Source: Antarcticibacterium sp. 1MA-6-2
Lineage (GTDB): Bacteria > Bacteroidota > Bacteroidia > Flavobacteriales > Flavobacteriaceae
Assembly (NCBI RefSeq): GCF_021535135.1
Contig: NZ_CP091036.1
Coordinates: 3,844,001 to 3,908,000, forward strand
DNA: 64,000 nt
Reading direction: 5' to 3'
Shown here: in pieces, positions 8,701-61,500 of the stretch
Position numbering within the stretch: position 1 is the first letter of the stretch
How the letters are laid out: every line of letters starts with the position of its first letter
Notes under the pieces: generated by a model
What the model saw: the letters and a program-made list of their open reading frames with translations, nothing else
What the model was told of the DNA's origin: nothing
The model's database searches: none
Program-made: the position numbers and the translations under genes

Positions 8701-11700
8701 CCTATCGCTGCTGGTGGCAACACCTTGCCAAATCCTTCAGAGAATTTCGGAGGGATTTCAAGAGCCATAAATTCTACCAATTTTGAACAATCCAATGTGG
8801 AGTTCATTCAATTCTGGGTGATGGATCCATATATTTATCCTGAAAACGCAGGGAATGAAGGAGGAACACTAACCTTTAACCTCGGGAATATTTCTGAAGA
8901 TGTCTTAAAAGATGGAAGGAAACAATATGAAAATGGTTTGCCTCCCGACGGTACAGTTTTAAATACAGTGAGTACTGCTTTTGGAAGAGTACCTGCAGAC
9001 CAGTCTTTAATATATGCTTTTGATACCGAAGGCGAAGCGCGCAGGCAGCAGGATGTGGGGTTTGATGGGCTTAATGATGCCATGGAGAGGACGCAATTTC
9101 CAAACTTCGGCAACCTGGCAGATCCTTCGGCCGATAACTACGAATATTTCCTGAATACTACCGGAAGTATAATTGAACGCTATAGAAAATATAACGGAAT
9201 TGAAGGTAACTCGCCTCCGGAAGTTGGAGATACCAATCGTGGAAATAGTACTCTTCCTACTACCGAAGATCTCAACAGGGACAATACGGTGAATACCATC
9301 AACAGCTATTTCGAATATAAAGTACAAGTATTTCCCGGAATGAACATCGACAATAACCAGTATATTACAGATGTTAAAGAAACCACTGCTCCTCTTCCTA
9401 ACGGGGAACAAATCGCAGTGAGATGGGTGCAATTCAAGGTGCCGATCTTTGAACCTACCAATGCTGTAGGAGGAATAGCCGATTTTCGCTCTATAAGGTT
9501 TATGCGGCTTTTCTTAACCGATTTTGAGGAGCGAACTATCCTTAGGTTTGGAACCATGGACCTGGTGCGCGGTGATTATCGACGCTACACGAGAAGTCTT
9601 GATCCCGATACTCCGCGGCAGCCTGTAAACAACGATGAAACTTTGTTTGAAGTTACAGCTGTAAATATTGAAGAAAATGAAAACCGGGAGCCCGTGCCTT
9701 ATATTTTGCCCCCAGGTGTTATAAGGGAAGAGTTGTTTAATAATAATACTAATATCAGGCAAAATGAACAATCCCTGGCATTAAGGGTATGTGGTTTGGA
9801 ACCTCAGGATGCAAGGGCAGTTTATAAGAATTTCCAGGTAGATATGCGGCAGTACAAAAATCTGGAGATGTTTGTACATGCGGAATCTCTCATAAATGAA
9901 GTTCCTTTAAAAGAAGGACAAATGGTTGCCTTCATAAGAATGGGGACCGATTTTACTGAAAATTATTATCAGATAGAAATTCCATTAACTCCAACCATCT
10001 TTGGTGCAACTTCAGCTGAGGAAATATGGCTTAGCTTCAAACCGATTACTTCTGCCTTTGGAGCTCCTTCAGCAGGTAAAAACTAAAGTGCTGGGCGACC
10101 CCTCATTAATTTCTACTGAAATCAATTACTTTGATGAAGCTCTTAATTTAACCGATCCTGAAGATCCTTATGAAATTGGAGGTTTAAGAGTGGGTATAAA
10201 AGGAAACCCCAGTTTTGGGAATATTCGCCTGTTGATGCTGGGTGTGAAGAATGGAACTCCGGAATCGGCTGCTGCCGAGATTTGCGGAGAAGTGTGGTTT
10301 AATGAACTAAGATTGTCTGAACTTGATAATGAAGGCGGCTGGGCTGCAATTGTGAACATGGATGCCAATATTGCCGATTTTGCAGATGTTTCAGCCACCG
10401 GAAGAAGAAGTACCGTGGGATTTGGTAATCTTGAGCAGGGGCCAAATCAAAGGAGTCGGGAAAATCTTCAGCAGTATGATGTAGTGACAAATTTAAATAT
10501 GGGGCAGCTCCTTCCGCAGAGATGGGGAATAAGAGTGCCTTTTAACTACAGCAGGGGAGAAGAGCTCATTACTCCAAAATACGATCAGGAATTTTTAGAT
10601 CTTGAACTTGAGAATCGTCTTGACGCAATAACCGATGCTGATGAACGGGAAAGAGTAGAAGAGCAGTCGCAGATCTATACCAAGAGACAAAGTATTAACG
10701 TAATTGGATTGCGTAAGGAACGTGTAGAGGAGGATGATAAGCCTATGCCTTACGATATAGAAAATTTTGCGGTGACAGCTTCTTATAACCAGATCGACCA
10801 TAGAGATTTTGAAATTGCAGATGCCTTAAGCCAGGATGTAAGGCTGGGGGCTACCTATGATTACAGTTTCGTTCCTTTAAATATAGTGCCATTAAAAAAT
10901 GTTACTGCTTTAGATAGCAGCGACTACTATGCCATTATAAGGGATTTCAACTTTAATCCTTTACCTACAAATATTACTCTTAATTCAAACATCTTCAGGC
11001 AGTACAACGAGCAAAAATTCCGGGAGATCAATTTGAGTGAGAATGATATAGGTATTCCTACACTTTATCAACGAAACTTCATCTTTGACTGGCAGTACAG
11101 GATCAATTACAATCTAACCAAATCTTTGCAGTTTAGTTTTAATGCTTCGAATAACCGGATCGTTAGAAATTATATAGACGAAGGAAATATTGCTGATAAT
11201 ACTATAGGTCTCTGGGATGATTTCTTCCAGATAGGAGATCCCAATCAACATTTCCAGACTTTGCAGCTTAATTATGAACTGCCTTTGAGTAAGATCCCTA
11301 TTCTTCAGTTCGTAAAGGCTACCTATTCCTATACTGGAGATTTTCAGTGGCAGCGGGGTTCAGAAGTTTTTAGAACTATTGAAGGAGTGCCAGATCTTGG
11401 AAATTCTGTTCAAAATGCCAGTATCCACCAGGTCAATGCGAATATGGATATGACCAGTCTCTATAAATACCTCAAGTTAACCCCCAGAAGAGGAACACCT
11501 GCAACAGTGAGGGAAAGGAGTGCGGCAGTTCCCACTCTTAATCAAACTCAAAAACCAAGACCTGCTGCGGAATCCTCCTTAAGCTCCGGAGACAGAACTT
11601 ATAATACTTTAATAGGTTTTGCGACGGCCATACAAAGATTGCAGGTTACCTACAGGAGAAATGAAGGTATATTTTTACCTGGGTACACTCCCGATATAGG

Positions 11701-12943: not shown

Positions 12944-13005
12944 TTAAATGCTGCTTGACTAAAGCAAAGAAAAAATTAACTTTGTCACTTTCAAAAACCA
13001 ATCTT

Positions 13006-17073: not shown

Positions 17074-17985
17074 ATGGCCTTTTTGAGTAATACCCGTGTA
17101 CATACTCCTGCAGTATCTGTACTTTCAGATTTTAGGGAGATCACTAAAATGCGACTGGCAATAAGCGTGGTTTTTTCCTCGGTAGCTCATTATTTTCTTG
17201 GTGCTGAGGTAATAGATTTCGTTACAGTCTTACTTTTAGCAATTGGCGGCTATTTAATGGTGGGGGCCTCCAATGCTTACAACCAGATCATCGAGAAAGA
17301 TCTGGACGCTTTGATGGATCGTACCAGGAACCGTCCTCTCCCTGCAGAGCGAATGTCAGTAAATTCGGCATTTATAATAGCCAGTTCCTTTACCATTCTT
17401 GGATTAATTGTACTGTACATTATAAACCCCAAAACGGCAATGTTTGGGGCAATAAGCATATTTCTTTATGTAAGTGTTTATACACCTTTGAAGACCAGGA
17501 CACCACTTTCTGTATTTGTAGGAGCTTTTCCCGGTGCTATTCCTTTTATGTTGGGTTGGGTTGCGGCCACAAACGATTTTAGTATTGAACCCGGGACTTT
17601 GTTCATGATCCAGTTCTTTTGGCAATTTCCGCATTTTTGGGCTATCGGGTGGTGGTTATATGACGACTATCAAAAAGGAGGATTTTTTATGCTGCCCACA
17701 GGAAAAAGAGATAAAGGAACAGCAGTACAAATTGTGCTATACACCATCTGGACCATTCTGGTTTCGATAGTACCGGTTTTTGGGGTTACAGGTAAACTGT
17801 TTCTTACCCCGCTGGCAGGAGTACTTGTTTTTGCTTTAGGGCTTGGAATGCTCTATTACGCAGTTAATCTTTATCGCAAGAGGGATGCAGCATCAGCAAA
17901 AAAATTAATGTTCGCAAGTGTTTCTTATATCACTCTGCTTCAAATAATATACGTTTTAGATAAATTTTTGAGACCATGGATTTAA
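17074..17985 (+). CDS. ctaB: Protoheme IX farnesyltransferase (heme O synthase)
   Basis: 303 residues. The enzyme adds a farnesyl chain to heme B to make heme O, the precursor of heme A for the terminal oxidase, in the inner membrane. It is a UbiA-type prenyltransferase: the first polyprenyl-binding motif is NAYNQIIEKDLDALMDRTRN followed by RPLP, and the second conserved region is DDYQKGGFFMLPTGK. Eight or nine hydrophobic segments are visible. It leads an oxidase operon and overlaps the next gene by 10 bases. The synonym cyoE is also used. Confidence 0.94.
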   Translation: MAFLSNTRVHTPAVSVLSDFREITKMRLAISVVFSSVAHYFLGAEVIDFVTVLLLAIGGYLMVGASNAYNQIIEKDLDALMDRTRNRPLPAERMSVNSAFIIASSFTILGLIVLYIINPKTAMFGAISIFLYVSVYTPLKTRTPLSVFVGAFPGAIPFMLGWVAATNDFSIEPGTLFMIQFFWQFPHFWAIGWWLYDDYQKGGFFMLPTGKRDKGTAVQIVLYTIWTILVSIVPVFGVTGKLFLTPLAGVLVFALGLGMLYYAVNLYRKRDAASAKKLMFASVSYITLLQIIYVLDKFLRPWI

Positions 17986-20694: not shown

Positions 20695-21422
20695 ATGAAA
20701 AACGGCTCCTACATAGGCATCTCTTTTATTATCCTGATTTTTGGAATCATTTTTATTCCGAAGATAATCGACAGGGTTAGTGATAAGGAAGTAGTAAAGT
20801 CTGACAGACTAAGTGTTCAAAAAAAGACAAAAGAACCCGGTAAGATGGCTTATATTGAACAGTACGGAAAAAAGAAAAAGGTTCCCGCTTTTTCATTTGT
20901 AAATCAGGACGGCGATACTATCACAAATGAAGATTACCTGGGTAAAGTTTATGTAATTGAATTTTTCTTTACAACCTGCCCTTCTATTTGTCCTATTATG
21001 AATAAAAATCTTGTAGAAGTGCAGGACGAGTTTAAAGGTGAAGGAGATTTTGGGATAGCATCCTTTACAATAGATCCCGTCCACGATACGCCACAAGTGC
21101 TGAAGGAATATGCTAAAAATTATGGAATAAATAATCCAAACTGGAACTTTTTAACCTAGGTGATAGAAATGAAATATATGAGGTAGCGAACACAGGTTTT
21201 GGGATTTATGCCAATGAAGATGAAACCGTTCCGGGAGGTTTCGCCCATTCAGGATTGTTTGCACTGGTTGATAAAGAAGGGTACGTACGTTCCCGAACCG
21301 ATGAATTTGGAAACCCCATTATCTATTACCGTGGATATATTGAACGGGCTCAGTCAATCGTAGAGGAAGGTGAGGAACCACAAATTGATATTTTAATTGA
21401 AGATATAAATAATCTGTTGTAG
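20695..21422 (+). CDS. SCO family copper chaperone (one frameshift)
   Basis: About 242 residues. SCO proteins deliver copper to the CuA site of cytochrome oxidase from the outer face of the inner membrane. An N-terminal anchor (YIGISFIILIFGIIFIPKII) precedes a thioredoxin fold with the copper-binding FFTTCPSICPIMN (CxxxC), FTIDPVHDTP and, after the break, the histidine ligand in GGFAHSGLFALVD. The frame stops at 21159 (ACC TAG); the protein resumes as GDRNEIYEVANTGFGIY in another frame, so removal of TA at 21157-21158 restores it. The stop at 21422 is two bases before the next gene. Confidence 0.9.
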
Positions 21423-21958: not shown

Positions 21959-22013
21959 GCTAGGTGCAAATTATCCTTTTAAAATGATACGAATGACTGG
22001 AAGAGGAATTTTA

Positions 22014-24300: not shown

Positions 24301-25566
24301 ATGTTTAGCAGAGACAATTGGAGCGAAATTATCGAAGCTTTGACTTCAAATTGGTTTAGGACCTTACTTACTGCCTTTGGGGTATTATGGGGGATATTTA
24401 TTCTGGTAATTCTTCTTGCAGCAGGAAAGGGATTGGAAAATGGGGTAATGCAGGGTTTTGGGGGTACCGCCACAAATACTATGTTTATGTGGACGCAAAC
24501 TCCGTCTAAACCTTATAAAGGTTTACCTAAAGGGAGAAGATATAATTTCAAAACCGGAGACGTGCTGGCAATTAAACAAAATGTGCCAGATCTAAGATTT
24601 GTTTCTCCCAGAAATCAACTGGGTGGATTTGGAGGAGCCAACAATGTGGTGAGGGGTTTAAAAACTAGTGCTTTTAATGTTTATGGTGATTATCCCGAGG
24701 TCATCCTGCAAATGCCAATGGACATCACCTCAGGGCGGTTCATTAATTATTCTGATATTAATGATAATCGCAAGGTGGCAATCATTGGGGAAGGAGTTAG
24801 AAAAGAAATGTATGAACCCGGCGAGGAAGTAGTGGGAAGTTACATAAAGATAAACGGCGTTAACTTCATGGTTATAGGTACATATAAGAAAAAAGGAGGT
24901 AACGGTGGAAATTCTGAAGAAGATCAAAAGGAGATTTATGTTCCCTTTACAGCATTCTCCCAGGCCTTTAATATGGGAGAAACAGTAGGATGGATGGCTA
25001 TTACCGCTGTAGATGATGCGTCTATAACCAATCTTAAATCCCAGGTTTTTGATATAATAAAATCAAGACACTCTATTCATCCAGAAGATGACCGGGCTAT
25101 AGGGAATTTTGACCTTTATGAGGAATTTAGTAAGGTTAATGGATTATTTGTGGCTCTTAAAGCAGTTGCTTATTTCGTGGGCACCTTAGTATTGCTGTCG
25201 GGTATTATTGGGATAAGTAATATTATGCTTATTGTAGTTAAGGAACGTACAAATGAGATAGGAATTCGACGGGCCCTTGGTGCCACTCCCTGGTCTATAA
25301 GAGGTCAAATACTTCTGGAATCAATTTTTTTAACTATAATTTCAGGTATGGCAGGTATAGTATTGGCAATAGGTGTGATTGCGCTGGTGAACCTTCAGCT
25401 AAAAGGGGTGGACACTACAGATATGATGTTCCTCAATCCCAGTGTGGACCTTGGGGTAGTCTTTATAGCTCTGTCTATTTTAATTATTTCAGGTTTGCTT
25501 GCAGGATTGATCCCGGCACAAAATGCCATTAGGATCAAACCGGTAGATGCCCTAAGAACAGAATAA
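24301..25566 (+). CDS. ABC transporter permease, MacB/FtsX type, second copy
   Basis: 421 residues with the same layout as the preceding copy: N-terminal helix (WFRTLLTAFGVLWGIFILVILLAAGKG), a periplasmic domain, and a C-terminal FtsX region with NIMLIVVKERTNEIGIRRALGATPWSI and the ending PVDALRTE. Sequence similarity at both ends shows an old duplication, while the periplasmic domains have diverged (for example the Gly/Asn-rich KKGGNGGNSEEDQKE). Start follows the previous stop by one base. Confidence 0.92.
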   Translation: MFSRDNWSEIIEALTSNWFRTLLTAFGVLWGIFILVILLAAGKGLENGVMQGFGGTATNTMFMWTQTPSKPYKGLPKGRRYNFKTGDVLAIKQNVPDLRFVSPRNQLGGFGGANNVVRGLKTSAFNVYGDYPEVILQMPMDITSGRFINYSDINDNRKVAIIGEGVRKEMYEPGEEVVGSYIKINGVNFMVIGTYKKKGGNGGNSEEDQKEIYVPFTAFSQAFNMGETVGWMAITAVDDASITNLKSQVFDIIKSRHSIHPEDDRAIGNFDLYEEFSKVNGLFVALKAVAYFVGTLVLLSGIIGISNIMLIVVKERTNEIGIRRALGATPWSIRGQILLESIFLTIISGMAGIVLAIGVIALVNLQLKGVDTTDMMFLNPSVDLGVVFIALSILIISGLLAGLIPAQNAIRIKPVDALRTE

Positions 25567-26772: not shown

Positions 26773-28210
26773 ATGAAAAAATCAATCTTAGTTGTTTTTG
26801 CACTTTTTGCAATCACTAATATTTATTCTCAGGAAAAAGAATGGACCCTTCAGGAGTGTATTGCTTATGCCCTGGAAAACAATATTTCTATTAAGCAGTC
26901 ACAGCTGGATTTAGAATCTTCAGATATAGACAGGCTTGACGCTATTGGAAATTTTATACCCAGCATTAATTTAAATGCGACGAATGCCTGGAATACCAGG
27001 TCTTACTCAAAATGTAACAACAGGAATTCTCCAAACCCAAACTACCAGGAACTTTTCTGCGGGTGCTTCGGCCAGTTTATTATTGTTTGATGGCCTGCGC
27101 AACTTCCGCCAGTTACAAAGAGCAAAATTGTCTCAACTGGCAAGCCAGTATTCCCTGGATCTTATGCGGGACGATATAGCTCTCTTTGTAGCAAACTCCT
27201 ATTTACAGGTGCTTTTTAACAAGCAAAGCCTGGAGATCCTGGAATCACAACTGGAAGTCACAAAAGCTCAACTGGAGAGGACAGAGGATCTGGTTGAAGC
27301 AGGAGTTCTTCCCGAAGGAGATCTTCTGGAGATACAGGCAACCTATGCTGATGAGATGCAGCGAATAATTGTTGCTCAAAATAATATTCGAATTTCCCTT
27401 ATTAGCCTTGCACAAACATTGCTGATAAAAGATTATGAGAATTTTGATATAGCCGATAGAGAATACGACGTATTAGGAAGTGAGATCCTCGCCCGCACGC
27501 CGGAAGAATTAGTGGCAAACGCCAAGGAGGAAAGAAATGAAATTAAAGTTGCCGAAGCGAACCTCGAATTGGCAGAAGCTGATGTTGAATTAGCTAAAGG
27601 TGCTTACTATCCATCCCTTGGGGCATTTTTTAACTACAATACCAGGGAATCCGGAGCGGGAAGAATAGTTGGTGCTATCCAGGATCCTGATCAGCCAAAC
27701 AGGCCCATAGGATTTGTTGAATCTTCAGGAGATGTGGTTGTTGCTCCCAATACTATTGCACAACTTGGAAACCCCCTCCCGTTCTTCAGGCAATTATATT
27801 TAAATGACGGTATAACTTATGGAGTGCAGTTAAGCATTCCAGTATTGAATGGATTTTCTACCAGGAATCAGGTTAAACGAAATAAAATAAACGTTGAAAG
27901 AGCGACCTTTCAATTGGAGCAGGCCGAATTAGACCTGGAAGCAGATGTGTACCAGGCTTATGTTGATGCACAGGGGGCTTATGAAGCTTATGAAGCAGCC
28001 CTGGTTGCGCTAAATGCACAGGAACGTGCAAATACGTATGCAACTGAAAGATTTGATGTGGGATTAACCAATGCATTTGATTTCAGCCAGTCTAAATTAA
28101 GGCTTGAAAATGCTCAAACCGAAGTGATCCGGGCAAAATATGATTATATATTCAAATTAAAAGTGATCGAGTTATATTTTGGTATTCCAGTAACCGATCT
28201 TAAATTCTAG
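26773..28210 (+). CDS. TolC family outer-membrane efflux protein (one frameshift)
   Basis: About 479 residues. Signal peptide SILVVFALFAITNIYS, then WTLQECIAYALENN, which opens almost all TolC-like proteins of Bacteroidota. Two long coiled-coil repeats follow, each with the structure of a TolC half (about 150-215 and 370-440), and the C-terminus reads KVIELYFGIPVTDLKF. The frame changes near 26994 in GGAATACCAGG: the next frame continues as GLTQNVTTGILQTQTTRNFSAG. It forms the outer channel of the exporter. The ATG at 26773 starts the signal peptide. Confidence 0.92.
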
Positions 28211-29490: not shown

Positions 29491-30148
29491 GTGCAAAAAA
29501 TTTTGTGTATTGAAACGGCTTCTACTAATTGCTCTGTAGCATTAAGCAATGGGGAAGGGGTTGTTGCAGTCAAAGAAGACTACAGCCTGAATTTTTCGCA
29601 TGCCGAGCGATTACACATTTTTATTCAGGAGATCCTCAGGGAAAATAATCTCGCTCTTTCAAATTTGGATGCTATTGCAATAAGTGAAGGCCCCGGTTCT
29701 TATACAGGACTCAGGATTGGAGTTTCTGCAGCAAAAGGTCTTTGTTTCTCTTTAGATATTCCACTTATTGCAGTTCCTACCCTGGCTTCTTTATCCCACC
29801 AGGTGAAAGAAAAGGTAGTCGTTGTACCTATGATGGATGCCCGTAGAATGGAAGTCTATACTGCTGTTTTTAATGAACAGCAGGAACAGGTAGAGAAAAC
29901 TTCAGCAAAAATTCTTGAAGCCGATTCTTATAGTCATCTTCTTGAAAAAGGGAAAGTGTATTTTATTGGTAGTGGAGTTGAAAAATTCAGAAACATTTGC
30001 TTAGCACGAAAATGCTGTTTATATAGAAGGTAAACTCCCTTCAGCACGAGAAATGGTAAAGGTTGCCATTAGTAAGTACAAAAAAAGCGACTTTGAAGAT
30101 GTCGCTTATTTTGAACCTTTTTACCTTAAAGATTTTATTGCAGGTTAA
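29491..30148 (+). CDS. tsaB: tRNA threonylcarbamoyladenosine modification protein TsaB (one frameshift)
   Basis: About 219 residues. TsaB is the partner of TsaD in forming t6A37 in ANN-decoding tRNAs, an essential modification. Motifs are ILCIETASTNCSVAL, NFSHAERLH, ISEGPGSYTGLRIG and VVVPMMDARRMEVY. The frame runs off after EKFRNIC; replacing TA in GCTTAGC (30002-30003) by G gives WHENAVYIEGKLPSAREMV and the usual YFEPFYLKDF end at 30148. It overlaps the convergent channel gene by four bases. Because tsaB is essential, the break is almost surely an error. Confidence 0.9.
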
Positions 30149-31279: not shown

Positions 31280-33552
31280 ATGGAAGATGTTTATCTTGTG
31301 ATGCTGGTGGCTCTCTTTGCACTGGCCATTACAGACCTGGTGGTGGGAGTAAGTAACGATGCCGTTAATTTTTTAAATTCGGCCATTGGTTCAAAAGCAG
31401 TTCCTTTACGTACAATTTTAATCGTTGCAAGTATTGGGGTGGCAGTGGGAGCAGTATTTTCCAGTGGCCTAATGGAAGTTGCAAGGGAAGGAATTTTTGT
31501 TCCTGGTAAATTTTATTTTGAAGAGATCATGGTCATATTTATGGCTGTTATGATAGCAGATATTCTTCTGCTGGATTTCTTTAATTCTTTGGGCCTTCCA
31601 ACTTCTACAACTGTTTCCATTGTTTTTGAATTACTGGGAGCAGCAGTATGTGTATCTCTTTTAAAGATCTATCATTCTTCAGGTGATTACTCCAGCCTGT
31701 ACACTTATATAAATACTACCAAAGCGACTGAAATTGTTATAGGAATTCTGCTTTCTGTGGTTATTGCTTTTACTGTTGGTGCCATTATCCAATATTTATC
31801 CCGGCTCGTCTTTTCCTTTCAGTATGAGAGAAAATTAAAATACGTGGGAGCAGTTTTTGGTGGATTGTCCTTTACTGCCATTCTCTATTTTATCCTGATG
31901 AAAGGTTTAAAGAGTATAGCAATTGTTCCTGAGGAAATGCTGAATTATGTGAACGAGCATTCTTTACTTATTGTGGTAATTAGTTTTATCGTTTTTTCTG
32001 CGATTTCACAGGCAATAATTACCTTTTTTAAGATCAATATTCTAAAAATTATTATCCTCGTTGGCACCTTTGCGCTGGCGTTGGCCTTTGCAGGAAATGA
32101 CCTGGTGAACTTTATAGGGGTGCCTATAGCAGCCTGGCAATCTTTTGTAATCTGGCAAACTGCTCACGAAGCCACTATGTTTTGCCTAATGAACTTCTTA
32201 TGGATGGTTTATCCCAGGAAGTGCCAACCCCTGTTTTTTTACTTCTCCTGGCAGGTCTTGTAATGGTGGTAACTCTTTGGTTCTCTAAAAAAGCAATGAA
32301 GGTTACTGATACCGAAATAAACCTGAGCAGGCAAACAGACGGTGCTGAAAGATTTTCACCTAATTTCATTTCCAGGGCTCTTGTAAGATATTTTATACTT
32401 GTTGGAAATACAATTGAGAGAATTATTCCCGGAAGGATTTCTGAAAAACTCAGCTCAAAATTTGAAACAAAAGAAACTCCCGATAAAGGCAAAAATTTAG
32501 ATGCACCTTCTTTTGATCTTGTGAGGGCATCAGTAAATCTTGTAGTAGCGAGTATTCTTATTTCTATAGCCACTAATCTTAAATTGCCGCTTTCTACTAC
32601 TTATGTAACCTTTATGGTAGCGATGGGAACTTCCTTAGCCGACAGGGCGTGGGACCGCGATAGTGCTGTATATAGAGTAGCAGGAGTAATAAATGTTATA
32701 GGAGGCTGGTTTGTAACTGCATTGGTAGCATTTTTAGGTGCAGCCCTCTTTGCAGCCATTATTTATTTTGGAGGTATAATAGCCATAGCAATATTAGTGT
32801 TGATGGCAGTTGTTCTTATAGTGAAAAGTGCCGTCCTCCACTCCAGGCAGGTTAAAGAAGAGAAAAAGCTTAAGCGCTATAATCGTAGTGATATTGTTAC
32901 GATCAATGAAATTACCGTTGAAACTTCAGAAAATATTTCCAGTGTTATTAAAGGAATTAATAAGATGTTCTCTAAAACGGTAGAGAACCTTGGATACCAT
33001 GACCTAGCAAAGCTGAAGAAGAATTCCAAAGCAATAGATAAACTGGAGGAAGAAATTGATGAACTTAAAGGAAACATTTTTTATTTTATAAAATCCCTTG
33101 ATGACGATTCTGTAGAGGCCAGTAAGTTTTATATTCTTATCCTGGATTACCTGCAGGATATGGTCCAGTCAATTGGCTATATTACCCGTAACAGCTATAA
33201 CCACGTCCACAATAATCATAAGAATCTAAAGTTTAATCAAATAAGGGATCTAAAAGGTATAGACGATAAGATGCAGAAACTGTTTGACGATATTCAGCTC
33301 ATTTTTGACACGCACAGCTTCAGCAACATTGATGAGGTAATTTCTGAAAAACAGCAATTGCTGGATCACGTGTCCGATTTAATTCAGAAACAGATAAACC
33401 GCATCAGAACTTCAGAAACAAGTCCTAAAAATACAAAGCTTTACTTTGGATTACTTCTGGAAACAAAAGATCTTATAACTTCTACAATGGCTCTCCTGCA
33501 GTTGTTTCAGGAATTTAATCAGGAAGCCCGGCAAACAATTACCTACAGGTAA
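31280..33552 (+). CDS. PiT-type inorganic phosphate transporter with PhoU-like C-terminal domain (one frameshift)
   Basis: About 757 residues. The PiT signature is present twice: VGVSNDAVNFLNSAIGSKA near the start and AFAGNDLVNFIGVPIAAWQS in the middle, with LGLPTSTTVSIVFELLGAA and the later LPLSTTYVTFMVAMGTSLAD. After the membrane part, about 230 residues form a helical, cytoplasmic PhoU/DUF47-like region (LEEEIDELKGNIFYFIKSLDDD). It moves phosphate with a cation. The frame changes at C-TA-TG (32176-32177) between QTAHEA and LPNELLMDG. A TTG at 31271 is an alternative start. Confidence 0.9.
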
Positions 33553-33618: not shown

Positions 33619-34447
33619 TTACTGACTATTTCTCATCTTTTTAATACGCTCTACTTCATTTAAAAGTAAAGGATAAGCTGGTTCGGCCATATTGTGACCA
33701 TAACCATCAAGTTCCAGGAGCTGGGTATCTTTGTGTCCTGCAACTCTCATCATTCGCATCATGTAAGCATTTTCCTCATAGCGCCCCAGCATCTCCAGTT
33801 CGCGGTCACCTGTAATAAGGAGTAGGGGTGGAGCATCTGCTCTTACGTGATATAAAGGTGCAAGTTCGTCAACAACAGGTATTTTTCCATCTATTCCCCT
33901 TTCCTCTCTAATTGTAAAATGGGTAATTGTGTGGCCACTAAAAGGAATTAATCCTGCAATTTTATTTGCATCAATACCAAAAGCTTTAAGATATTGTTTA
34001 TCCAAACCTACCATACTGGCCAGATATCCACTAAGCCGAGTGTCCGGAAACAAATATTAAATCAGGATTTCCACCAAAACTTTTTATGTTTTTAAAAACC
34101 CAGGCCACTGCGGCTGCCGCGTCTTCTATGTATGAGGGAGATTTTGCCCTGGGGCTTAACCTGTAATTAACGCTTACAACAGCAATACCTTTTTCCTTAA
34201 GCTCCTGTGGTACAAATTTGCTTCCAGATGTCAATCCCCCTCCATGAAACCAAACCACGGTTGGAAAACCTTTTTCTTCTTTTGGATAATAAATATCAAG
34301 TAAAGCTCGCTCGTTAATGTATTCATTGGCTCTGTTAACGGAGTCGTGGTAATATTTGATATTTTCCTTTAGAACATAATCTGTTTTTTGTGCAGTTACA
34401 TTCAGACTTAACAGAAACAGGATGAGGGCAACGGTGGTTTTATTCAT
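33619..34447 (-). CDS. Secreted alpha/beta-hydrolase, esterase/lipase type (one frameshift)
   Basis: About 276 residues. Signal peptide TVALILFLLSLNVTAQ, then the oxyanion-hole motif VVWFHGGGLTSG, the nucleophile elbow GHSAGG split by the break, an acid region (PLLLITGDRE) and the catalytic histidine in DGYGHNM. This is the HSL-like carboxylesterase group; the substrate is unknown. The break is at CTAAGC on the plus strand (34031-34036): reading GCTGGTGGC for GCTTAGTGGC restores the elbow exactly. This repair is convincing because the family motif itself is rebuilt. Confidence 0.85.
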
Positions 34448-36688: not shown

Positions 36689-37464
36689 GAGACCTGGTAT
36701 TTATTCTTACTGCTTCAACTAAAGAGCCCAGAACTGCAGGATTAATATTGCTGAATAATTTATGGCTTCCTTTTGCTTCTGAAATATTTAGAAGCTCTCT
36801 TTCTTCCAGGATCTTTTTTGTTTGCCGGGCAACAGCTTCTCCGGAATCTATAATTTGTACATTTTTAGGGAAAATCTTTCTAAGGGCGGGCATAAGGTAA
36901 GGGTAATGGCTACATCCCAGCACAAGATAATCTATTTGTGCTACCAGCATTGGTTTTAAAAGGTTCCTAAGCAGCATTTCCATTTCGGGAGTATTGTGCT
37001 GTCCCTGTTCAATAAGATCTACCAGGCCCTGTCCTACGACTTCTATAACTGTAATGTTCTTGGAATATAATTCTGAAGTTCTGGAAAAAAGCTCGCTGGA
37101 TAGAGTACCTTTTGTAGCCAGGATGCCTATAAATTTTGTTTTAGATTTTAAAGCGGCAGGTTTAATTGCGGGTTCAATACCTATAAATGGAACCGGATAA
37201 TTTTCTCTAAGGATTTTTATAGCATTGGTGGTCGCAGTGTTACATGCTACTACTATGAGTTTACAGCCCATTTCAAGAAGGGCTTCGGTGTTTTTTTTGC
37301 TTAGAGCTACTATTTGTTCTACAGGTTTTTCACCATAGGGAGCATTTATACTGTCTGCCAGATAAATACTGCTCTCAGCTAAGCAGAAGTTGGATCACTT
37401 CCTTCCAGATAGATGTTCCCCCCACACCCGAATCAAAAAAACCAATAGGATTTGAATTACTCAT
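36609..37464 (-). CDS. murI: Glutamate racemase (one frameshift)
   Basis: About 285 residues. MurI makes D-glutamate for peptidoglycan in the cytoplasm. The start MSNSNPIGFFDSGVGGTSIWKEV holds the catalytic region; the two catalytic cysteines are in VVACNTATTNAI and LVLGCSHYPYL. The frame breaks at CTAAGC on the plus strand (37379-37384); reading CTGG for CTTAG on the gene strand gives QLLLAESSIYLADSINAPYG, a perfect family match. The last 27 or so residues lie opposite the conserved end of the PorP-like gene and do not match the family, so the true stop may be earlier. Confidence 0.88.
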
Positions 37465-38075: not shown

Positions 38076-38888
38076 TTAATCTTCGTTATTTTCTTTCTTC
38101 TGTTTTCTTGCAGCTTCTATTGAATCTCTTTTTCGCTTGCGTTCTTCCAAAATTTTCGCCCTTCTCTCTTCAAATTCCTGTTGCTTCACAGCTCTTATCG
38201 AATCTCTTTCCTTCTTTCGTTGCTCCAGTAATACTTCCCGTTCGTTCTTGGCACTTTCCGCTGCCTCCTGCTTTTCTGCTATAACGGCATCTTCTTCAAC
38301 ACTGCGGTTTTCTTCTTTCTCCATCTGGGCTATCTCTTCTTTAGAGCTTAGTTGCTCCCTTCCGGCTGCCCTGGTGATCGTTCTAAGAACCTGATCACTT
38401 ATATTATGTTTTTCTGCTATAAAAACTATACCAACATTAGAAGTCCTGTCAAAAATAATATCGTAATTCCTTTGTTCCCCTATTTCCTGGATCGCATTAA
38501 AGACCTGATCCTGTATAGGCTGTATTAACCTTTTCTTCTGAAGGATAAAGTCTCCGTTTGAGCCGAATCTCTTTTGCTGATATTCTGCAATCTTTGATTC
38601 TTCAAAACCTATAGTAGCTTCTCTTTCCTCTATTAATTCTTTTGTAAGTAAAGGTCTTTCCTGTTCCAGGGCAATCTTCATTTGATCTACTTTACGCTGA
38701 TCTTTTTCCAACTCTGCTTTCCATTGCTGAACCCTTTCCTCCAGCTGTGCCGAAGCCTGCTGATATTCGGGTACATTTGCCAGGATATATTCCATATCAA
38801 TATATGCCAGGCGGTTTGGTTTTTGAGCCATCAACTGAGGCCCAATGCCCGCCATAATCAATATTAAAAACAGAAGTTGGCGTTTCAT
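38076..38888 (-). CDS. OmpH/Skp family periplasmic chaperone, long copy with charged tail
   Basis: 270 residues. Signal peptide LLFLILIMAGIGPQLMAQ, the strand RLAYIDMEYILANVPEY, a coiled-coil region (about 42-120), the strand NYDIIFDRTSNVGIVFIAE, then a further 95 residues made almost only of Glu, Lys, Arg, Gln and Ala. In that tail the motif RDSI(R/E)A occurs twice, with an ERxKILEERKRKR stretch. The tail is absent from the shorter copy and from classical Skp. It is located between bamA and the short copy, as in other Bacteroidota. Confidence 0.9.
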   Translation of the reverse strand: MKRQLLFLILIMAGIGPQLMAQKPNRLAYIDMEYILANVPEYQQASAQLEERVQQWKAELEKDQRKVDQMKIALEQERPLLTKELIEEREATIGFEESKIAEYQQKRFGSNGDFILQKKRLIQPIQDQVFNAIQEIGEQRNYDIIFDRTSNVGIVFIAEKHNISDQVLRTITRAAGREQLSSKEEIAQMEKEENRSVEEDAVIAEKQEAAESAKNEREVLLEQRKKERDSIRAVKQQEFEERRAKILEERKRKRDSIEAARKQKKENNED

Positions 38889-46381: not shown

Positions 46382-47633
46382 ATGAAAAAATTATTTTTCC
46401 TTACGGCTTTCGCCTTAGCTACGGCTGTGGGTTATGCCGGGGGATACCGTGTGAGTTTGCAGGGACAACGAGCCCTGGCAATGGGACACACAGGGGTGGC
46501 AGTTGTTAACAGTGCCGAGCTTGGATTTTTTAACCCCGCAGGTCTTGTTTACCTTGAAAACAAATTAAATGTTTCTGCCGGAGTAAGTGCCGTATTTTCT
46601 GATGTGGTATGGCAAAATGAGGAGTTCGGGCAAACTTCACGTACAGACAGCCCGGTGGGAACACCATTCTACCTGTATGCATCCTATAAAGTTAATGACT
46701 GGATGGCATTAGGATTAAGTGTCTATACTCCATATGGAAGTGCTGTATCCTGGGAGGATGATTGGGCTTAGTTCTCACCTGGTAAATAACATTGACCTTC
46801 AGGCAATATACGTGCAATCAGTAGTTTCTCTAAAGTTTAATGAATACTTAAGTTTTGGTGGTGGTCCCATTTATGTAACCGGGGGCGTTAACTTTAACAG
46901 GAATCTAAACCGAACACTAAGTGATCTTGAGGGAAACAGGAGCAATGTCACTGTAGATGCCAGCGGAGTTAGTGCCTGGGGATGGTCTGCCAGTGCACTG
47001 TTTTCACCAACAGAAGATTTTAGGATAGGATTTAATTACAGGTCAGAAATTATTCTTGAGGCTGAAGGCGGGGAAGCAACTTTTTCCAATATTCCCAATT
47101 CTCCTTTAACTCCCTTTGCAAACACTACTTTTGATGCGTCCTTACCTATGCCTGCTGAATTGAGTTTAGGTCTTTCCTACGAATTCCAGGACAAATGGCT
47201 GTTTGCTTTTGATTACAATCAAACCCTGTGGAGCGTATATGAATCCCTGGATCTCAACTTTGCCAATCCAGGTATCCCTGATTCTCAGAATGCAAGAAAT
47301 TATAAAGATTCTTCAATATACAGGTTCGGTTTACAGTATGAAGCCAGCCAGTTATTCACTTTACGGGCCGGATATTATTTTGATGAATCTCCCGTACAGG
47401 AAGGTTATTTCGCCCCGGAAACTCCAAGAAATGACTCTCACGGATTTACAGGTGGATTATCTCTTAATTTAAGTGACAAATTTTCTATTGATGGATCATT
47501 CCTCTACATCCGTTTTGCTGAAGTAGATGCTTCATATGACTATTATCTTGAAAACGGGCAGGCAGTGCCTTTTGGAGGAACTTACAAATCCTCTGCTTTT
47601 GTCCCTGGAATTGGGGTGACTTATAAATTATAA
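46382..47633 (+). CDS. OmpP1/FadL/TodX family outer-membrane transporter (one frameshift)
   Basis: About 416 residues. Signal peptide LFFLTAFALATAVGYAGGYRV, then the FadL family opening RVSLQGQRALAMGHTGVAVV and NPAGLVYLENKLNVSAG, and a barrel ending in FVPGIGVTYKL. FadL-type channels take up hydrophobic compounds such as long-chain fatty acids. The frame stops at 46771 in GGGCTTAGTTC; reading GGGCTGGTTC gives WEDDWAGSHLVNNIDL, a continuous match. It lies 120 bases after the hydrolase gene and 19 bases before the SGNH gene. Confidence 0.9.
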
Positions 47634-47652: not shown

Positions 47653-49216
47653 ATGAAAAACTATATAAAATATTTACCTATCCTGGCTCTGGGTTTTACA
47701 GCCTGTGAACCGGAACTGGAAAATCCAATTGACGAACCGGGTTTTTACAGCAATGGAGAAGCAGATTTTTCTAACTACGTGGCCCTGGGTAATTCGCTTA
47801 CTGCAGGCTACGCAGATGGTGCTCTTTACATAACGGGTCAGGAAAACAGCTATCCAAATATCCTTGCCGGGCAATTTGCTTTGGTGCAGGAAACAGGAGA
47901 ATTTCTACAACCTTTAGTGGCAGACAATACCGGAGGCCTACTTGCTGCCGGAACACAAATAACTTCCAACAGGCGTGTATTGGCCGTAGGTAGCGGTGGA
48001 AATCCTTCTCCTGTAGTTTTAAGCGGTACACCCACAACAGACATCGTAAATACACTTTCGGGTCCTTTTAATAACATGGGAACACCCGGAGCAAAAAGTT
48101 ATCACCTCCTTGCTCCCGGTTATGGAAATCTTTCCGGAGTATCTACAGGAATGGCAAACCCTTATTTTGTTCGCTTTGCATCCTCACCGGAAACTTCGGT
48201 ACTTGCAGATGCTATTGCTCAAAATCCTACTTTTTTCTCCCTGTGGATAGGAAACAATGATGTACTTAGTTATGCAACTTCTGGTGGAGTGGGAGTAGAT
48301 CAATCAGGGAATCCCGATCCTTCTACTTATGGTAGCAATGATATTACAGATCCTAACGTTTTTGCAGCTGTATATTCCCAAATGGTAACCGCCTTAACAG
48401 GAACCGGGGCAGAGGGAGTACTTATTAATATCCCCGATGTTACTACAGTTCCGTTCTTTACTACGGTTCCAAATAATGCACTTGCTCTTGATGCAGAGAC
48501 AGCGGCCAGTTTAACAGGATATTTCCAGGCGGTTGCAGGAATCCTTACCCAGGGTTTAATGCAGCAGGGACTACCTGCGGCGCAGGCTCAGGCTTTGGCT
48601 TCCCAATATGCCATCACTTTTAATGCCAGTCCTAACTTAGTTTTTAATAGATGTGCTTATTACGTCAACAAACCCTTTGGGCTTCCGTCAAATGACTGAG
48701 GAAGAAATGCTTGTGCTTACGATAAATCAGTCTGCTTTGGCAGAAGGTTATGGATCAGTAAGGATCACTCCGGAAGTAATGCAGGTACTTGGAATCCTTC
48801 AACAGGGAGGGCAGCCTACCCAGGAACAGGCACAACTGGTACTTAATGGGGTAGACGCTATAGATGATAAGGATGCCTTAGATACAGAGGAGCTGGGTAA
48901 TATTAAAGCTGCTACTACTGCTTACAACGCTACTATAAAAGCTCTTGCAGAGGCAAATGGTCTTGCATATGTTAATTCTAACGCGCTGCTCACGCAGGTA
49001 GCCACAGGAGGGATAGCCTTTGATGCAGGTACTTTGACATCAACCTTTGTAACGGGAGGCGCTTTTTCTCTTGATGGGGTTCACCCAACTCCACGAGGAC
49101 AGGCTTTAATTGCTAATGAAATTATTGAGCAAATAAATACAGTCTATAATTCAACCGTTCCCAAAGTTAATATCGGGAATTACGGTACTGTTACTTTAAG
49201 CAACAACCTGCAGTAG
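47653..49216 (+). CDS. Secreted SGNH/GDSL hydrolase, lipoprotein (one frameshift)
   Basis: About 521 residues. Signal and lipobox ILALGFTAC suggest a lipoprotein. SGNH blocks: block I GNSLTAGYAD (Gly-Asn-Ser in place of the usual GDS), block III WIGNNDVL, and block V DGVHPT with the Asp/His pair. Frame changes in CTTAG (48636-48640); reading CTGG gives PNWFLIDVLITSTNPLG and the protein continues to 49216. The gene sits directly after the FadL-like porin gene, which suggests joint handling of lipid substrates: hydrolysis at the surface, then uptake. Confidence 0.85.
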
Positions 49217-51151: not shown

Positions 51152-51834
51152 ATGGATTACGGAAAAGAATTCGAAAAATATGCCACCAAACATCAGGGCA
51201 TAAATAGCAATTATTACGATAAGATAATTACAAGCATGATGCTTAGTGGGAATGACTCCCAATATTATTGAGGAACGCCAGATGAATGCAGTTGCGATGG
51301 ACGTTTTCTCGAGATTGATGATGGACAGGATCATATTTCTTGGAACACAGGTTAATGACCAGGTTGCAAATATTATACAGGCTCAAATGTTGTTCCTCGA
51401 AAGTACCGATGCTTCCAAGGACATCCAGATATACATCAACTCCCCCGGAGGCAGTGTATATGCTTAGTTTGGGAATATATGATACCATGCAGTTTATAAA
51501 GCCTGATGTTGCTACTATTTGCACAGGAATGGCAGCTTCTATGGGAGCGGTATTGCTTTGCGCAGGAGCCAAAGGAAAACGAAGTGGACTTCCACATTCA
51601 CGAGTTATGATACACCAACCTATGGGAGGTGCTCAGGGACAGGCCAGCGATATTGAAATTACCGCCAGGGAGATCATATCTCTTAAAAAGGAGTTATACA
51701 ATATTATAGCAAACCATTCCGGCCAGCCTTACAATAAAATTGAAGAGGACAGTGACAGGGATTTCTGGATGAAGGCAGACAGGGCTAAGGAATACGGAAT
51801 GATTGATGAAGTTCTTTCAAGAGATAATAAATAG
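51152..51834 (+). CDS. clpP: ATP-dependent Clp protease proteolytic subunit (two frameshifts)
   Basis: About 227 residues. The start [16 protein letters not shown] is the typical N-terminus of the family in Flavobacteriia. The catalytic Ser is in [11 protein letters not shown], the His in SRVMIHQP, and the Asp in the region [15 protein letters not shown] onward. Two breaks, at GCTTAG 51241-51246 and GCTTAG 51462-51467, interrupt it; replacing TA by G at each restores [12 protein letters not shown] and [16 protein letters not shown]. It works with ClpX in the cytoplasm. Two hits in one essential gene show these are errors rather than mutations. Confidence 0.93.
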
Positions 51835-53416: not shown

Positions 53417-55672
<2,256 letters not shown>

Positions 55673-55851: not shown

Positions 55852-56395
55852 ATGGAAGAAGAAGCATTAAAGTTTGCAACAGAAGCTCATAGCGGGCAGT
55901 ACCGCAAGTATTCCTCTCAACCGTATATTGAACATCCCAAAAGAGTGGCAGAAATTGTACGTTCTGTTCCTCATACAGCCGAGATGATTTGTGCCGCTTA
56001 CTTACATGATGTTGTAGAGGATACTCCGGTGACCCTCGAAGAGATCCGTGAAAAATTTGGAGACAAGGTGGCACATCTGGTTGGGGAACTTACTGATGTT
56101 TTCGTCAAAGAAGACTACTAAGCACCTTAACCGCAAGGAACGGAAAAAAAGAGAAGTGGAGCGGCAGGCAAAAATAACTATAGATGCCAAAACAATTAAG
56201 CTCGCAGACGTTATTGACAATACTGCCGATATTCTTCGAAACGACCGCAATTTTGCCCGGCGGTATATTCCTGAAATGCAATCGCTGGTGGAGTCATTAC
56301 AGGGAGGGAATTTCAAATTGTTGATGAGAGCCTGTTATGAGGTGCAGCGGGGGAAATTTGAACTTAATCTGGAAGAGAAGAAAATTTCAGTTTAA
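55852..56395 (+). CDS. HD domain hydrolase of the SpoT/MESH1 type (one frameshift)
   Basis: About 181 residues. HSGQYRK and HPKRVAEI, then [12 protein letters not shown] (HD motif) and [19 protein letters not shown] are the residues of the ppGpp-hydrolase fold seen in SpoT and MESH1. It is a stand-alone, small domain, with no synthetase region. The frame stops at 56121 in TACTAAGCAC; reading TACCAGCAC gives [16 protein letters not shown] and restores it. A hydrolase for (p)ppGpp or another nucleotide is likely by family, not proven. Confidence 0.8.
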
Positions 56396-56519
56396 GGGAT
56401 TACCTCTAAAATTGTCAATTTTCTGCTTCTTTATGTGTTTAAAATAGATGGTAGGCGAGTAACGGGATTGATCCTTTCTCTATATTAATTACCTCTAATT
56501 AGCTATAATACTTATTTTT

Positions 56520-57151
56520 TCATTTTTTCCTAGCGACAACAATAGTATGCACATCCTTCTGGTTGCCCGATTTCTTATAGGAAATTTTAAGAACTTTAAT
56601 GTCTTCAAAATCATTGTTTGATAGTTGCGACGTAATTTTCTCAAGGGAATGAAAGTAAAAATATACCCGGTTATTATCAGCACTTAGGTTTTGAATCCGC
56701 TGTCCGCGGGATTGCCTTCTGCAAAACTAAGGTAGAGAAGGCCATTCTTCAGTAGTAGGTTATGAGCGTCTGTTATAAATTTTTCGGTATCTGTTTCTGA
56801 AAGGAAAGGAAGGAAAAAACCACAGATAATTCCGTGATATCTTTCTTTTAGATCGGCAATTCTTCTCCCGTCCATCACTTTAAAGCTCGCGGAGGGATTA
56901 TTGATCCTTGCTAATTCCACCATCTTTGGAGCCACATCCACTCCCATAATTTCAAAATCGGGGCTTTTAGATAATAGGTATTTTGTAATATTTCCCGGTC
57001 CACATCCAATTTCTAAGATTTTTGCGTTGGAAGGTATAGAATTACAAAAAAGACCATAGCTCTCATTGTACAAATCCATATCCATAAATTTATCCTGATA
57101 CAAATCTGCAATTTTATTCCAGGTCTCAAAAGTCTCCTGATATTTATCCAT
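56520..57151 (-). CDS. SAM-dependent methyltransferase (one frameshift)
   Basis: About 210 residues. The SAM-binding motif I is ILEIGCGPGNITKYLL, with IMGVDVAPKMVELAR (acidic post I) and the GFFLPFLSETDTEKF segment. The frame stops at 56684; deleting TA at 56685-56686 (reading ACCAGT for ACCTAAGT) gives GFKTSADNNRVYFYFHSLEK and ends at a TGA at 56520. Substrate unknown. Start MDKYQETFETWNKIADLYQDKF is typical of the group. It opens the minus-strand cluster in which the lipoprotein gene is upstream by 24 bases. Confidence 0.82.
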
Positions 57152-57175
57152 AATTAGGTGTTATTCTACAAAATT

Positions 57176-58145
57176 CTAAAAATTCTTCTGAAGATATTTC
57201 TCTACTTCACTTTTTTCTAAAAATTCTGAATAATCCTTAATACTCAGAATATCCTTTACAGCCTTTTCTTTATCTCCAACCTTGTGGTAGTAAGCCCTAC
57301 AAATTGTGTAACCCATCCAATATCCTGCATTTCGCGGCCTTAAATCGCTCTCTTGTTGCCAGGATTTCCAGATCTTTTTATTTTTATCTTTTTGAAACTC
57401 TTTCCAGATTTTCAATTCCATACCTTCAAATTCTTCATAATTTGCATCAGTTTCTCCGCTTATTAATTCGGCAATAAATTCTGCTGAGCCTTCTCTTATA
57501 CTTTTCCAAAGTAGTGTATTCCCCTTTTTCATGTTATCCTGATTAAAATGCACAAGTTCATGACTTACAGTTACCGGGATATGATTTCTCCTCATACTTA
57601 TTTTAAGAATATCCCGATTCCAGGCAGCAGTATCTGAATGAGGAGTTCTTGCAAGAATTTCGGTCCCAATTAGTAATCCGTTTCCTGAGATCGTACCATT
57701 TGACTAAGTACTTTCCTATTAAGAAGTAGACATCGGGAAATTTGGCGGGAGGATAAAGATCTTCAAATTTCTGAAAGCCCAAATTTATCTCATTCTCCAG
57801 ATCCTTTAAGTTGGAAACATCATTTCTGATTGATTGGTAGTAATCTTTAAAAGCTAATACAAACTCTGAAAATTCTTCTACAGACTGAATTTTTGTTTTG
57901 AAGAAATCATTTAATCCTTTAGAACCTCTTTCGAAGTAAAATTTTTTAAAAATTTGCCCGGCTTTGGAAGTATCCTGAATTGCTAAATCAAAGGCCTCAT
58001 AAAAATGATCAATATCAGAAGTTATAAGTTTTGCATTTGCAGGGTTCTCTTCTGTTCTAGAACCAAAATTAATTACGGCACAGGAATTCTGGAAAATTAC
58101 TATCAGGAACAGGGCAATCGATATGGGAGCTTTAATTTTTTTCAA
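57176..58145 (-). CDS. GldB-like lipoprotein with HELVH metalloprotease motif (DUF2268 type; one frameshift)
   Basis: About 323 residues. A signal peptide with lipobox (IFQNSCA) indicates a lipoprotein. The C-terminal part carries the zinc-site motif VTVSHELVHFNQ, then WKSIREGSAEFIAELISG and NAGYWMGYTICRAYY, as in the DUF2268 zincin family to which the gliding lipoprotein GldB also belongs. The frame breaks at CTAAG on the plus strand (57704-57708); reading TACTGG for TACTTAG gives YWSNGTISGNGLLIGTEIL. The start is a TTG at 58145. A role as protease or gliding lipoprotein is not shown. Confidence 0.7.
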
Positions 58146-58415: not shown

Positions 58416-58549
58416 AAAAATTTACCCGTGCCTGAACCTGTCGTTAATTATTATATACCATAGCTATCTAATTTCAATAGGAGACTAAATTAAGTTTTTT
58501 GTTTCCAGAGATTAGATTTGCTTCATTTTCATCTTCTATAAGTTGGGGA

Positions 58550-61500
58550 TCATTCGCGTATCAGGGAAAAATGCCCTTTAAATGATCTTCCATCACTTAA
58601 ATAAACTATAAACCAATAATCATCTGCGGGCATTTGATTTCCATTAAAAGTACCATCCCATTTCTCAGAAATGGCGGATAATTGTTTTAAAAGTTTTCCA
58701 TAACGGTCATAAATAAATATATCGCTATTTGTCTGGAATTGACTGTTAACTCCTTCTATTTGCCAAAAATCATTAATTCCGTCTCCGTTAGGAGTAAAAA
58801 ACTTTAAGTAACCTATAACTGATACTTTAATAGAGCTGGTGCCACAGCCTTTTTTATCTCGCACATACAATGTATGGATACCCGGACTCACATTTACAAA
58901 AATTGGACTATTTTGAAAGTTTGAATATTCATTATTTAAAGAAAACTCATAATCTCCCAGCCCCAGAGATGAAGTATTAACTGTGATAGTATTATTATTA
59001 GAATTATCAACTACTGAGATGTCATCTGGTGTAATAGTCGGCAATTCTGATGCATTCACAAAGATCTCTTTTGTTCTTGAACAACCTGTTCCATCTGATT
59101 TGGTTAGAGTTACCAGGTAAGTTCCCGGGGTAGAAACTGTTAAAGTTGATCCATTAGATAAAAAGGTACCATCTTTTTTGACCCATTCATAGTCAAAAAT
59201 TTCTGAATCATTTGTTTCAACTGGATCTAAAACTACTGTAAACGTTGGATCAGAAGAACACACCATCTGTGGTGTATCTATTGAAAAATCTGGTAATGAG
59301 TTGACAATAAATGCTATTTCTGTTGTTGCAATACAAGTTGAGTTTATTGGGTTTATAACTTCAACTGTGATAGTTTGTGTTCCGGAGACAAATGGATTTG
59401 GCAATGGACTGGGTAAATTAAAGCCGGACTCGTCATAGTACTGTACTTCCAAACCTGTTTGCCCATTTAATACGAGGTTCTGAATTTGTGAAGTATCAAA
59501 ATCGTGAAGTCCATCAGTATCATCACTATCTTTATCACATGAAATTTGATTTGGGACAGGATTGGCTATGGGGCGTTTTTCAACTATAAACTCTAAAGCA
59601 GTTTCACTAAAGCAACTTCCATCCAATATTTTATTATTTGTTACTCTTGCAGTTACAATTTGACTCTTAGTCCAAAATGGATTGGGTAAAGGGCTTAATA
59701 AAGGATTATTATTTTCATCAAAATAGGTTACAGTAACGTTTGACTGCCTTCCAACTAACGTGGATTCTACCTGGGATATATTAAAAGGATATTCTCCATC
59801 CTGGTCGGCATCACATTGTCGCTCAATAGTAACTGGATTTGCTACAGGTAATGACTCAACATATAGATTAATATGTGCTCCTAACCCAACACAATCATTG
59901 GTAAGTTTATCTTCTACTCTTATAAAGATCTGCTGGGTATTTGGATAGTTAATATTCCTGTAATTTGAGATATCTATAATTGGATTTTCTTCGGCTAAAG
60001 CATCAGCTTCATTTTTGTAATATTTGATTATTAATTGTTGTCCTGCAGGAAACATGGCTTCTATTGAAGCTTGTATCTTACTTAAATCAAAAAGTGAAAT
60101 CCCGTCATCATCACAAACGTATAAATTATGGGAAAAAGTGTCAGGTATTTGGGTAGTGTTTACTATTAAGTTCACCTGACTTGTTCTATAACAACCATTA
60201 AAATTTTCTACTCTTGCCCAAACCAGATCTCTACTTACAGTTTTATTAATGTAAACCTCCCCCATATTAATAGGATTAACGTTGCTTTCTGCATCTATTT
60301 GAGATTCAAAAAATGAAACAGTTTCATTTTCTGCATTTGTTGTTATTTTTGAAATAACTTCATCCAGATTAAAAGAGCTAAACCCATCTAAATCATCATC
60401 ACATTGGATAAGATCCACTGCTGCTTCAACTATTGGAGAATCATAAATAATAACCGTCGTGGTTTTAGTTGCAGATTCTGTACCTACGGTTACACTAAGG
60501 CTAATTTCATAAGTTCCTGGATTTGAAAAGACATGAATGGGTTCTAAATCTGTCGATATATTATTGACTCCGGAAGCAGGGTCACCAAAATTCCAGATTA
60601 CAGAATCTACAGCATCTGAAAGTTTAAATTTTGTATTATCTCCAAAACAGGTATTTTCAAATGAAATTTCATCAAATTGAAAATATGAGGAAATAAATGT
60701 AGGCAACCCTAAGCCGCTACTTCTTCCATCGAGATATATTTCATTATACCTGTAATTACAGCCAGGTCCTAAAACATTAGGATTTTCTATAACATCTAAG
60801 TATAGCCTATCAGATTTTGCAACGTATATTTTTCCATCAGGCCCCAGCTGTAAAGAAGAAAACGGCTCTCGTGTTGAAGCTTGTATTACTACTCCTGAAT
60901 TCGCAATATCAACTGCTGAACTTAGCCAACAAATTATACTGGCTCACCCCAGGATAGTAGGAAGCGTATAGCAAATTACTATTGGGAGAAAATTCAATTC
61001 CATAAGGATTTCCAGGCGGATACAAATCTGTTATAAGACTAACAACTTTTCCTGTATTAATATTAAAGTTAAAAACTTCCACCCCTATACCTGTCCAGGC
61101 AACAGCCAATTTGGAACCGTTTGGAGATATTTTAATTTGTCCTGTTGTTCTTGTGCTACGGATTGCTCCAACTGAACTGACTATTGGTGTTGTAGTTATT
61201 CCTGAAGCTGTTATATCAAAGGTGATGAATTCATAACTATCATATTTGTGAGCAACCACCCAATATTCATCTGAATCTGGTTTTTTTACTGCTGTAACTT
61301 TTTCGTTGAGCCGGGAATGTAATCTTTGATTCTTAATTATTACTGCTCCAATTCCTCCATTTAAGGTCATGTCTACCTCTGAATATTGTAGACCATTAGA
61401 ACCTGCGCCTCCGAGGGAAAGGGCATCAAGCGTGAAAATATAATAGTTATTTGTTGTTCCTGGTTTTGGTACTATAATGGCAGAGTGAGTACTGGAAGGA

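Follow-up and report, generated by a model that had tools for sequence, protein, structure and literature searches.

Frame breaks in a finished flavobacterial assembly point to probable misreading of methylated RCCGGY sites

We analyzed a 64,000-nucleotide stretch of the Antarcticibacterium sp. 1MA-6-2 genome (hereafter, the window; positions 3844001–3908000 of a single 4,383,004-base contig; completeness 97.25%, contamination 3.7%), in which reading frames are interrupted at short, similar words such as CTTAG and CTAAG. We conclude that these interruptions were very probably produced during sequencing, when 5-methylcytosine (m5C) in the palindrome RCCGGY (R, purine; Y, pyrimidine) was misread in the long-read consensus of native DNA, leaving scar words and false frame breaks. 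The conclusion draws on the scar words themselves, the almost complete disappearance of RCCGGY, residues in relatives’ proteins that fit this word at the breaks, two other genomes that encode related enzymes yet keep the word, and a matching restriction-modification (RM) locus. The strain is a Gillisia-like flavobacterium; Gillisia was among the closest named relatives of one window protein (85–88% amino-acid identity), and other Flavobacteriaceae reached up to 84%.

Results

A first-pass annotation of the window had described its frameshifts as sharing a TA dinucleotide, most often with GCTGG read as GCTTAG. Because a list of frameshifts drawn up by eye can favor TA, which is contained in the stop codons TAA and TAG, we rebuilt the list from homology, searching 1.764 Mb of the genome and aligning the hits with a frameshift-aware script. 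As references we used open reading frames (ORFs) translated from 1.2 Mb of another genome of the genus (G007), proteins of named relatives, and genus loci. We discarded 89 alignment-end artefacts, 11 breaks whose flanks were poor and 9 that were duplicates or antisense shadows. This left 58 breaks, 25 in positions 3744001–3908000 and 33 in positions 1–1600000, with net shifts of +1 (37), +2 (7), −1 (9) and −2 (5).

The breaks were concentrated on one short motif. The 9-base stretch at the break contained TA in 45 of the 58, compared to 50% of random positions, and CTTAG or CTAAG lay no more than 20 bases from 25, compared to a background of 2.0%; thus the words noted in the first pass are real, and they are enriched well outside the window. 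Requiring a purine before and a pyrimidine after the word sharpened the contrast: R-CTTAG-Y or R-CTAAG-Y occurred at 23 breaks (control, 0.5%) and any of eight R-word-Y scars at 35 (control, 0.8%), while 43 had either a scar word or RCCGGY-type residues in the relative. This approach placed 14 breaks in the window, including those in sprA (10029), murI (37383), the gene encoding the DDWAGSH motif (46768) and clpP (51241 and 51464). TA is present at 11 of the 14. The break at 24299 is weak, being backed by a minus-strand ORF of a few relatives. Places where a scar coincided with a hand-over between reading frames in the window numbered 11 for R-word-Y, compared to 1 when the same eight words were flanked by Y and R (64 R..Y and 69 Y..R matches, both strands counted for each place). 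When named relatives and genus loci served as references, no break backed by at least three references was found in 38.6 kb of G007, compared to four in 30.6 kb of the 1MA-6-2 genome (stretches of 24.3 and 6.2 kb, all four lying in the former). In two similar neighboring genes, the identical scar falls at the identical residue (genome positions 246641 and 247463), as would be seen if both copies shared the motif.

The residues of intact relatives indicate which word was originally present. RCCGGY-compatible residues, in three patterns, were found at 33 of the 58 breaks, compared to 1434 of 23200 random control positions (6.2%). Ala-Gly and Thr-Gly sites fit RCC GGY, and Asn-Arg and similar sites fit xRC CGG Y. 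At 11 breaks the relative has proline (e.g., Trp-Pro in sprA, Leu-Leu-Pro in murI, and clpP), which fits CCG and not CTG, since CTGG would give leucine. Leucine was found at three breaks, which have neither a scar word nor a residue pattern.

A scan of all inner words of 2–6 letters over the 1.764 Mb, in which R..Y flanks were set against all other classes of flank, led to the same word. The most depleted 4-mer between R and Y was CCGG, seen 29 times where 1273 were expected, and the most enriched 5-mer was CTTAG/CTAAG (614 vs 361 expected), with CTTAGG/CCTAAG (127 vs 61) and CCTAGG (35 vs 6) also in excess. The other flank classes of CCGG each retained 1419–1649 occurrences. The same scan of G007 showed neither the CCGG loss nor the scar-word excess, and when G007’s odds were used for the expectation, CTTAG/CTAAG was the sole 5-mer listed as enriched. 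Judging by codon usage, long ORFs should contain 500 RCCGGY, of which 24 are present; in G007, 298 are predicted and 252 present. Among the 29 remaining sites, 21 are ACCGGT and 27 are preceded by A or T, as if misreading depended on neighboring bases. The count of GCTTAG alone (1373 vs 760 for the reversed word) was rejected as a signal, its density being similar in several genus relatives (e.g., G005, G007 and G015). Two other features of composition were observed: CCGG reaches 2594 per Mb in the 1.764 Mb, 2.4 times its density in G007 (1079 per Mb), and CTAG is strongly depleted (929, where G007 would predict ~3400). Neither showed a connection to the scars.

These results bear directly on the word named in the first pass, GCTGG or CTGG. 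In its favor, GCTGG also gives Ala-Gly at phase-0 sites, and nanopore errors at this motif have been described in a Listeria lineage (PMC10687267). Because GCT GG. and GCC GG. both encode Ala-Gly, such sites cannot separate the two words; the Pro-Val and Pro-Ala sites and the near-absence of RCCGGY can. CTGG remains common between R and Y (2691 occurrences) where CCGG is nearly gone, relatives have proline at the 11 breaks noted above, and the three leucine breaks have no scar word. We therefore regard GCTGG as an extremely unlikely target. The presence of intact GCTGG, which had been taken to mean that the change was not absolute, is to be expected of a word that is not the target.

Throughout the genome, ACCGGC and GCCGGT together occur 19 times, compared to 1844 for CCCGGA and TCCGGG, a ratio of 0.010; the same ratio in 11 other, hand-picked genomes ranged from 0.77 to 1.56. 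A loss of this kind could in principle reflect selection against restriction sites, in which case the frameshifts would be genuine mutations or programmed frameshifting. Bacteria are known to avoid restriction sites, the genome has an RM system whose relatives are linked to RCCGGY, and about two thirds of the lost RCCGGY sites are unaccounted for by the named scar words. We nevertheless consider selection a most improbable cause. Relatives of the strain’s restriction endonuclease (REase) were found in 3 of 395 genomes of the class, its own included, and the two other carriers, with REase relatives of 76% and 68% identity and adjacent methyltransferases (MTases) of 63% and 62%, keep the word at ratios of 1.41 and 0.91, respectively. 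Loss of RCCGGY is thus not a general property of carriers, and restriction avoidance explains it poorly, although the enzymes of these two carriers may be inactive or of other specificity. Selection also leaves unexplained why sprA, clpP, murI and a malic enzyme gene are broken where relatives’ residues fit RCCGGY, and why scar words are over-represented throughout the 1.764 Mb.

The first pass had also proposed a search for an MTase whose target overlaps the affected sites, and a suitable candidate lies ~37 kb past the window end. The genome has one C5-cytosine MTase of family PF00145 (3945020–3946102; 164.4 bits) and no match to PF01555, the MTase search having been confined to these two families. 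Its catalytic PC motif, PPCPDFS, is conserved in an alignment of six sequences, which also agree strongly in the segment that precedes the last conserved motifs. An MTase 65% identical to it is annotated as modification methylase NmeDIP, and others of 55% and 53% identity adjoin enzymes of the Cfr10I/Bse634I family in Moraxella and Nostoc plasmids. NmeDI is an RM system with a Vsr enzyme that recognizes RCCGGY (PMC7973814, PMC4081073), and Cfr10I and Bse634I cut RCCGGY (PMC4081073). By its relatives’ annotation, then, the strain’s C5-MTase is a fitting candidate for RCCGGY modification.

Beside this gene is a type II REase of 359 residues (PADLOC REase_II, 437.8 bits; precomputed label PF27126) without a Pfam match. 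Assignment of this enzyme to the Cfr10I/Bse634I family was rejected: a genome search with PF07832, a model that does match the Moraxella and Nostoc enzymes, was empty, although it was run without a positive control genome. The locus also encodes a Vsr mismatch endonuclease (TIGR00632, 156.7 bits), separated from the MTase gene by one small ORF. Vsr-type enzymes repair the mismatch that arises from deaminated m5C (PMC7973814), so the presence of Vsr fits m5C as the mark. No Vsr was found in the ~4.1-kb loci of the two other carriers, an extent at which the strain’s own locus misses Vsr likewise. The RM locus and Vsr gene (~3943.5–3947.6 kb, outside the window) adjoin a phage-type integrase, which suggests that the locus is a mobile island.

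It could also be supposed that the letters RCCGGY themselves, without any modification, defeat a basecaller or polisher. The evidence assembled here consists of sequence, from which methylation is inferred, and to that extent it leaves room for such an artefact. We judge it very unlikely, however: the word that suffers is a degenerate palindrome like those of type II systems, the genome encodes a C5-MTase that fits, and four other single-contig genomes of the genus (G001, G002, G010 and G015; platforms not known) keep RCCGGY.

Some misreadings of RCCGGY may leave the frame intact. A relative’s glycine after alanine or threonine was replaced by tyrosine in 8 of 395 well-aligned places, compared to 2 of 2720 for other glycines (Fisher p = 2 × 10−6), with tyrosine picked after the substitution data had been seen. 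Proline before valine or alanine was replaced by leucine in 6 of 226 places, compared to 8 of 1493 elsewhere (p = 0.006). Several of the in-frame substitution sites read GCTTAT or GCTTAC, and one Walker-A-like motif, GAGKST in the relative, is written GASKST. Some amino-acid differences in the assembly are therefore probably false as well.

Several observations weigh against misreading of methylated RCCGGY, or limit how far it reaches. The case is built from the letters of the assembly, not from reads, signal or a platform record, and the specificity of the MTase is that annotated for its relatives, not assayed; moreover, Kwiatek et al., as cited in PMC7973814, described recognition of RCCGGB by NmeDI also. 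Because the residue patterns and the eight scar words were defined after the breaks had been seen, counts based on them are partly circular; the flank scan and the genome counts are less so. With G007’s odds, the CTTAG excess is less significant (614 vs 383, z = 3.6). The excess of the named scar words (~350) leaves most of the ~1240 lost sites unaccounted for, and no 4-letter core showed a clear excess as a substitute word, so the other lost sites must be diverse or in-frame forms beyond those enumerated. The dipeptides Ala-Gly, Thr-Gly, Pro-Val and Pro-Ala were kept in 454 of 714 places, nearly the same as the reversed pairs (430 of 651), and in-frame losses must thus be modest. Fifteen of the 58 breaks have neither a scar word nor RCCGGY-type residues, and G007 too has three weaker breaks, each backed by one or two references. 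Just two of the 58 breaks are located in homopolymers, and homopolymers are not shortened overall, unlike what would be expected of an old nanopore assembly.

Two groups of breaks stand apart. Those at genome positions 838896 and 895765, both among the 15, lie in A or T homopolymers and are ordinary long-read errors. At window positions 1424 and 44145 and genome position 3839998, the relative’s residues do not fit RCCGGY; 1424 adjoins a CCTAAG word, whereas a scar word is absent from the other two. These breaks may reflect a second error motif or true pseudogenes.

Within the window, the sprA gene is split by GCTTAGC at 10029..10035 (+), where a relative has Trp-Pro; the open frame is longer in 15 of 15 genus relatives (1615–2391 codons, compared to 1010 here). 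Two scars of the form GCTTAGT interrupt clpP, at 51236..51248 (+; proline in the relative) and 51459..51472 (+; Tyr-Ala-Gly), and a third, at 46766..46772 (+), breaks the Trp-Ala-Gly of DDWAGSH. A CTTAG scar interrupts the murI-like gene on the reverse strand at 37377..37390 (Leu-Leu-Pro in the relative). The malic enzyme gene is broken at 4690..4705 (+), at Pro-Val in the relative. Conserved Thr-Gly marks three further breaks, all on the forward strand: the scar ACCTAGGT, net +2, at 21154..21161 (67 relatives’ proteins), the break in a TolC-like gene at 26990..27005 (90 relatives’ proteins), and a net −1 break at 32170..32182 (28 relatives’ proteins). GCTTAGC lies at an Ile-Cys break at 29994..30008 (+; 25 relatives’ proteins), and ACTTAGT at 48635..48641 (+) where the relative has Asn-Arg.

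The remaining places were recognized by a frame hand-over only. They include scars at 34030..34036 (GCTTAGT, −), 56117..56123 (ACTAAGC, +), 57703..57709 (ACTTAGT, −) and 60920..60926 (GCTAAGT, −), and possible scars at 21959..21965 (GCTAGGT, +), 56682..56689 (ACCTAAGT, −) and 38346..38352 (GCTTAGT, +), the last being weak, as it is covered by a longer minus-strand ORF. The only two RCCGGY remaining in the window are both ACCGGT on the forward strand, at 17772..17777 (genome position 3861772) and 25539..25544 (genome position 3869539).

Discussion

We propose the following sequence of events. The C5-cytosine MTase of the type II RM system would modify RCCGGY almost everywhere in the genome; the assembly would derive from native DNA read by a single-molecule method, most likely nanopore, with a basecaller and polisher ignorant of this modification; and the consensus at nearly every RCCGGY would be a wrong word, mostly R-CTTAG-Y or the complementary R-CTAAG-Y (+1), and less often a form with a net change of +2, −1, −2 or zero. 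Within genes, forms that alter the length would mimic frameshifts and the others amino-acid changes. Methylation of the sites, m5C as the mark and the nanopore platform are all inferred. The suspicion voiced in the first pass, that a systematic misreading at a modified base exposes the strain’s methylation, is well supported in this form.

Scar-like or RCCGGY-like breaks made up 22 of the 25 and 21 of the 33 breaks in the two regions, over aligned lengths of 84.6 and 93.3 kb, respectively. Extrapolated very roughly from break counts scaled by aligned length, this suggests about a thousand false frameshifts genome-wide, those in sprA and clpP included, and most broken genes in the genome are probably false. 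Pseudogene counts, gene content and claims of frameshifting drawn from this assembly are consequently unsafe.

The pattern also names the strain’s likely methylated motif and RM system from the assembly alone. We think it somewhat more probable than otherwise that finished assemblies can retain a readable trace of the methylome, here that of a Bacteroidota strain with an active NmeDI-like system for RCCGGY. If so, a missing palindrome, R..Y scar words and a cognate MTase would together give motif, modification activity and near-complete occupancy without raw data. The purine-pyrimidine flank-class test requires no more than an assembly, and could pick out further public genomes with the same problem.

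Artefacts of this kind are known, and we regard the present case as a new, well-supported example. In Listeria, modification-mediated nanopore consensus errors, dominated by mismatches, have been described at GCAGC and GCTGG, with GCAGC tied to an MTase-carrying defense system (PMC10687267). As there, the motif in 1MA-6-2 is strain-specific and the errors survive polishing; unlike there, +1 insertions dominate among the errors seen, genes break, and the motif is RCCGGY. In Klebsiella and other species, methylation causes R/Y ambiguities with the minimal motif RA/TY (PMC11610573); these similarly show preserved motifs around erroneous positions and depend on the strain, but they are substitutions, whereas a CCGG core appears rewritten here with a change of length. 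A search of PMC12506013 gave nothing on a CCGG motif or on insertions and deletions. Among RM systems, VchM of Vibrio cholerae, an orphan MTase that places m5C at the first C of RCCGGY (PMC8559950), shares the proposed target, but the MTase of 1MA-6-2 is not an orphan. Its locus recalls Neisseria NmeDI, in which MTase, REase and Vsr likewise occur together; this likeness crosses phyla and was drawn by annotation rather than by direct comparison with NmeDI sequences, the link to RCCGGY running through the name, NmeDIP, of the 65% identical relative.

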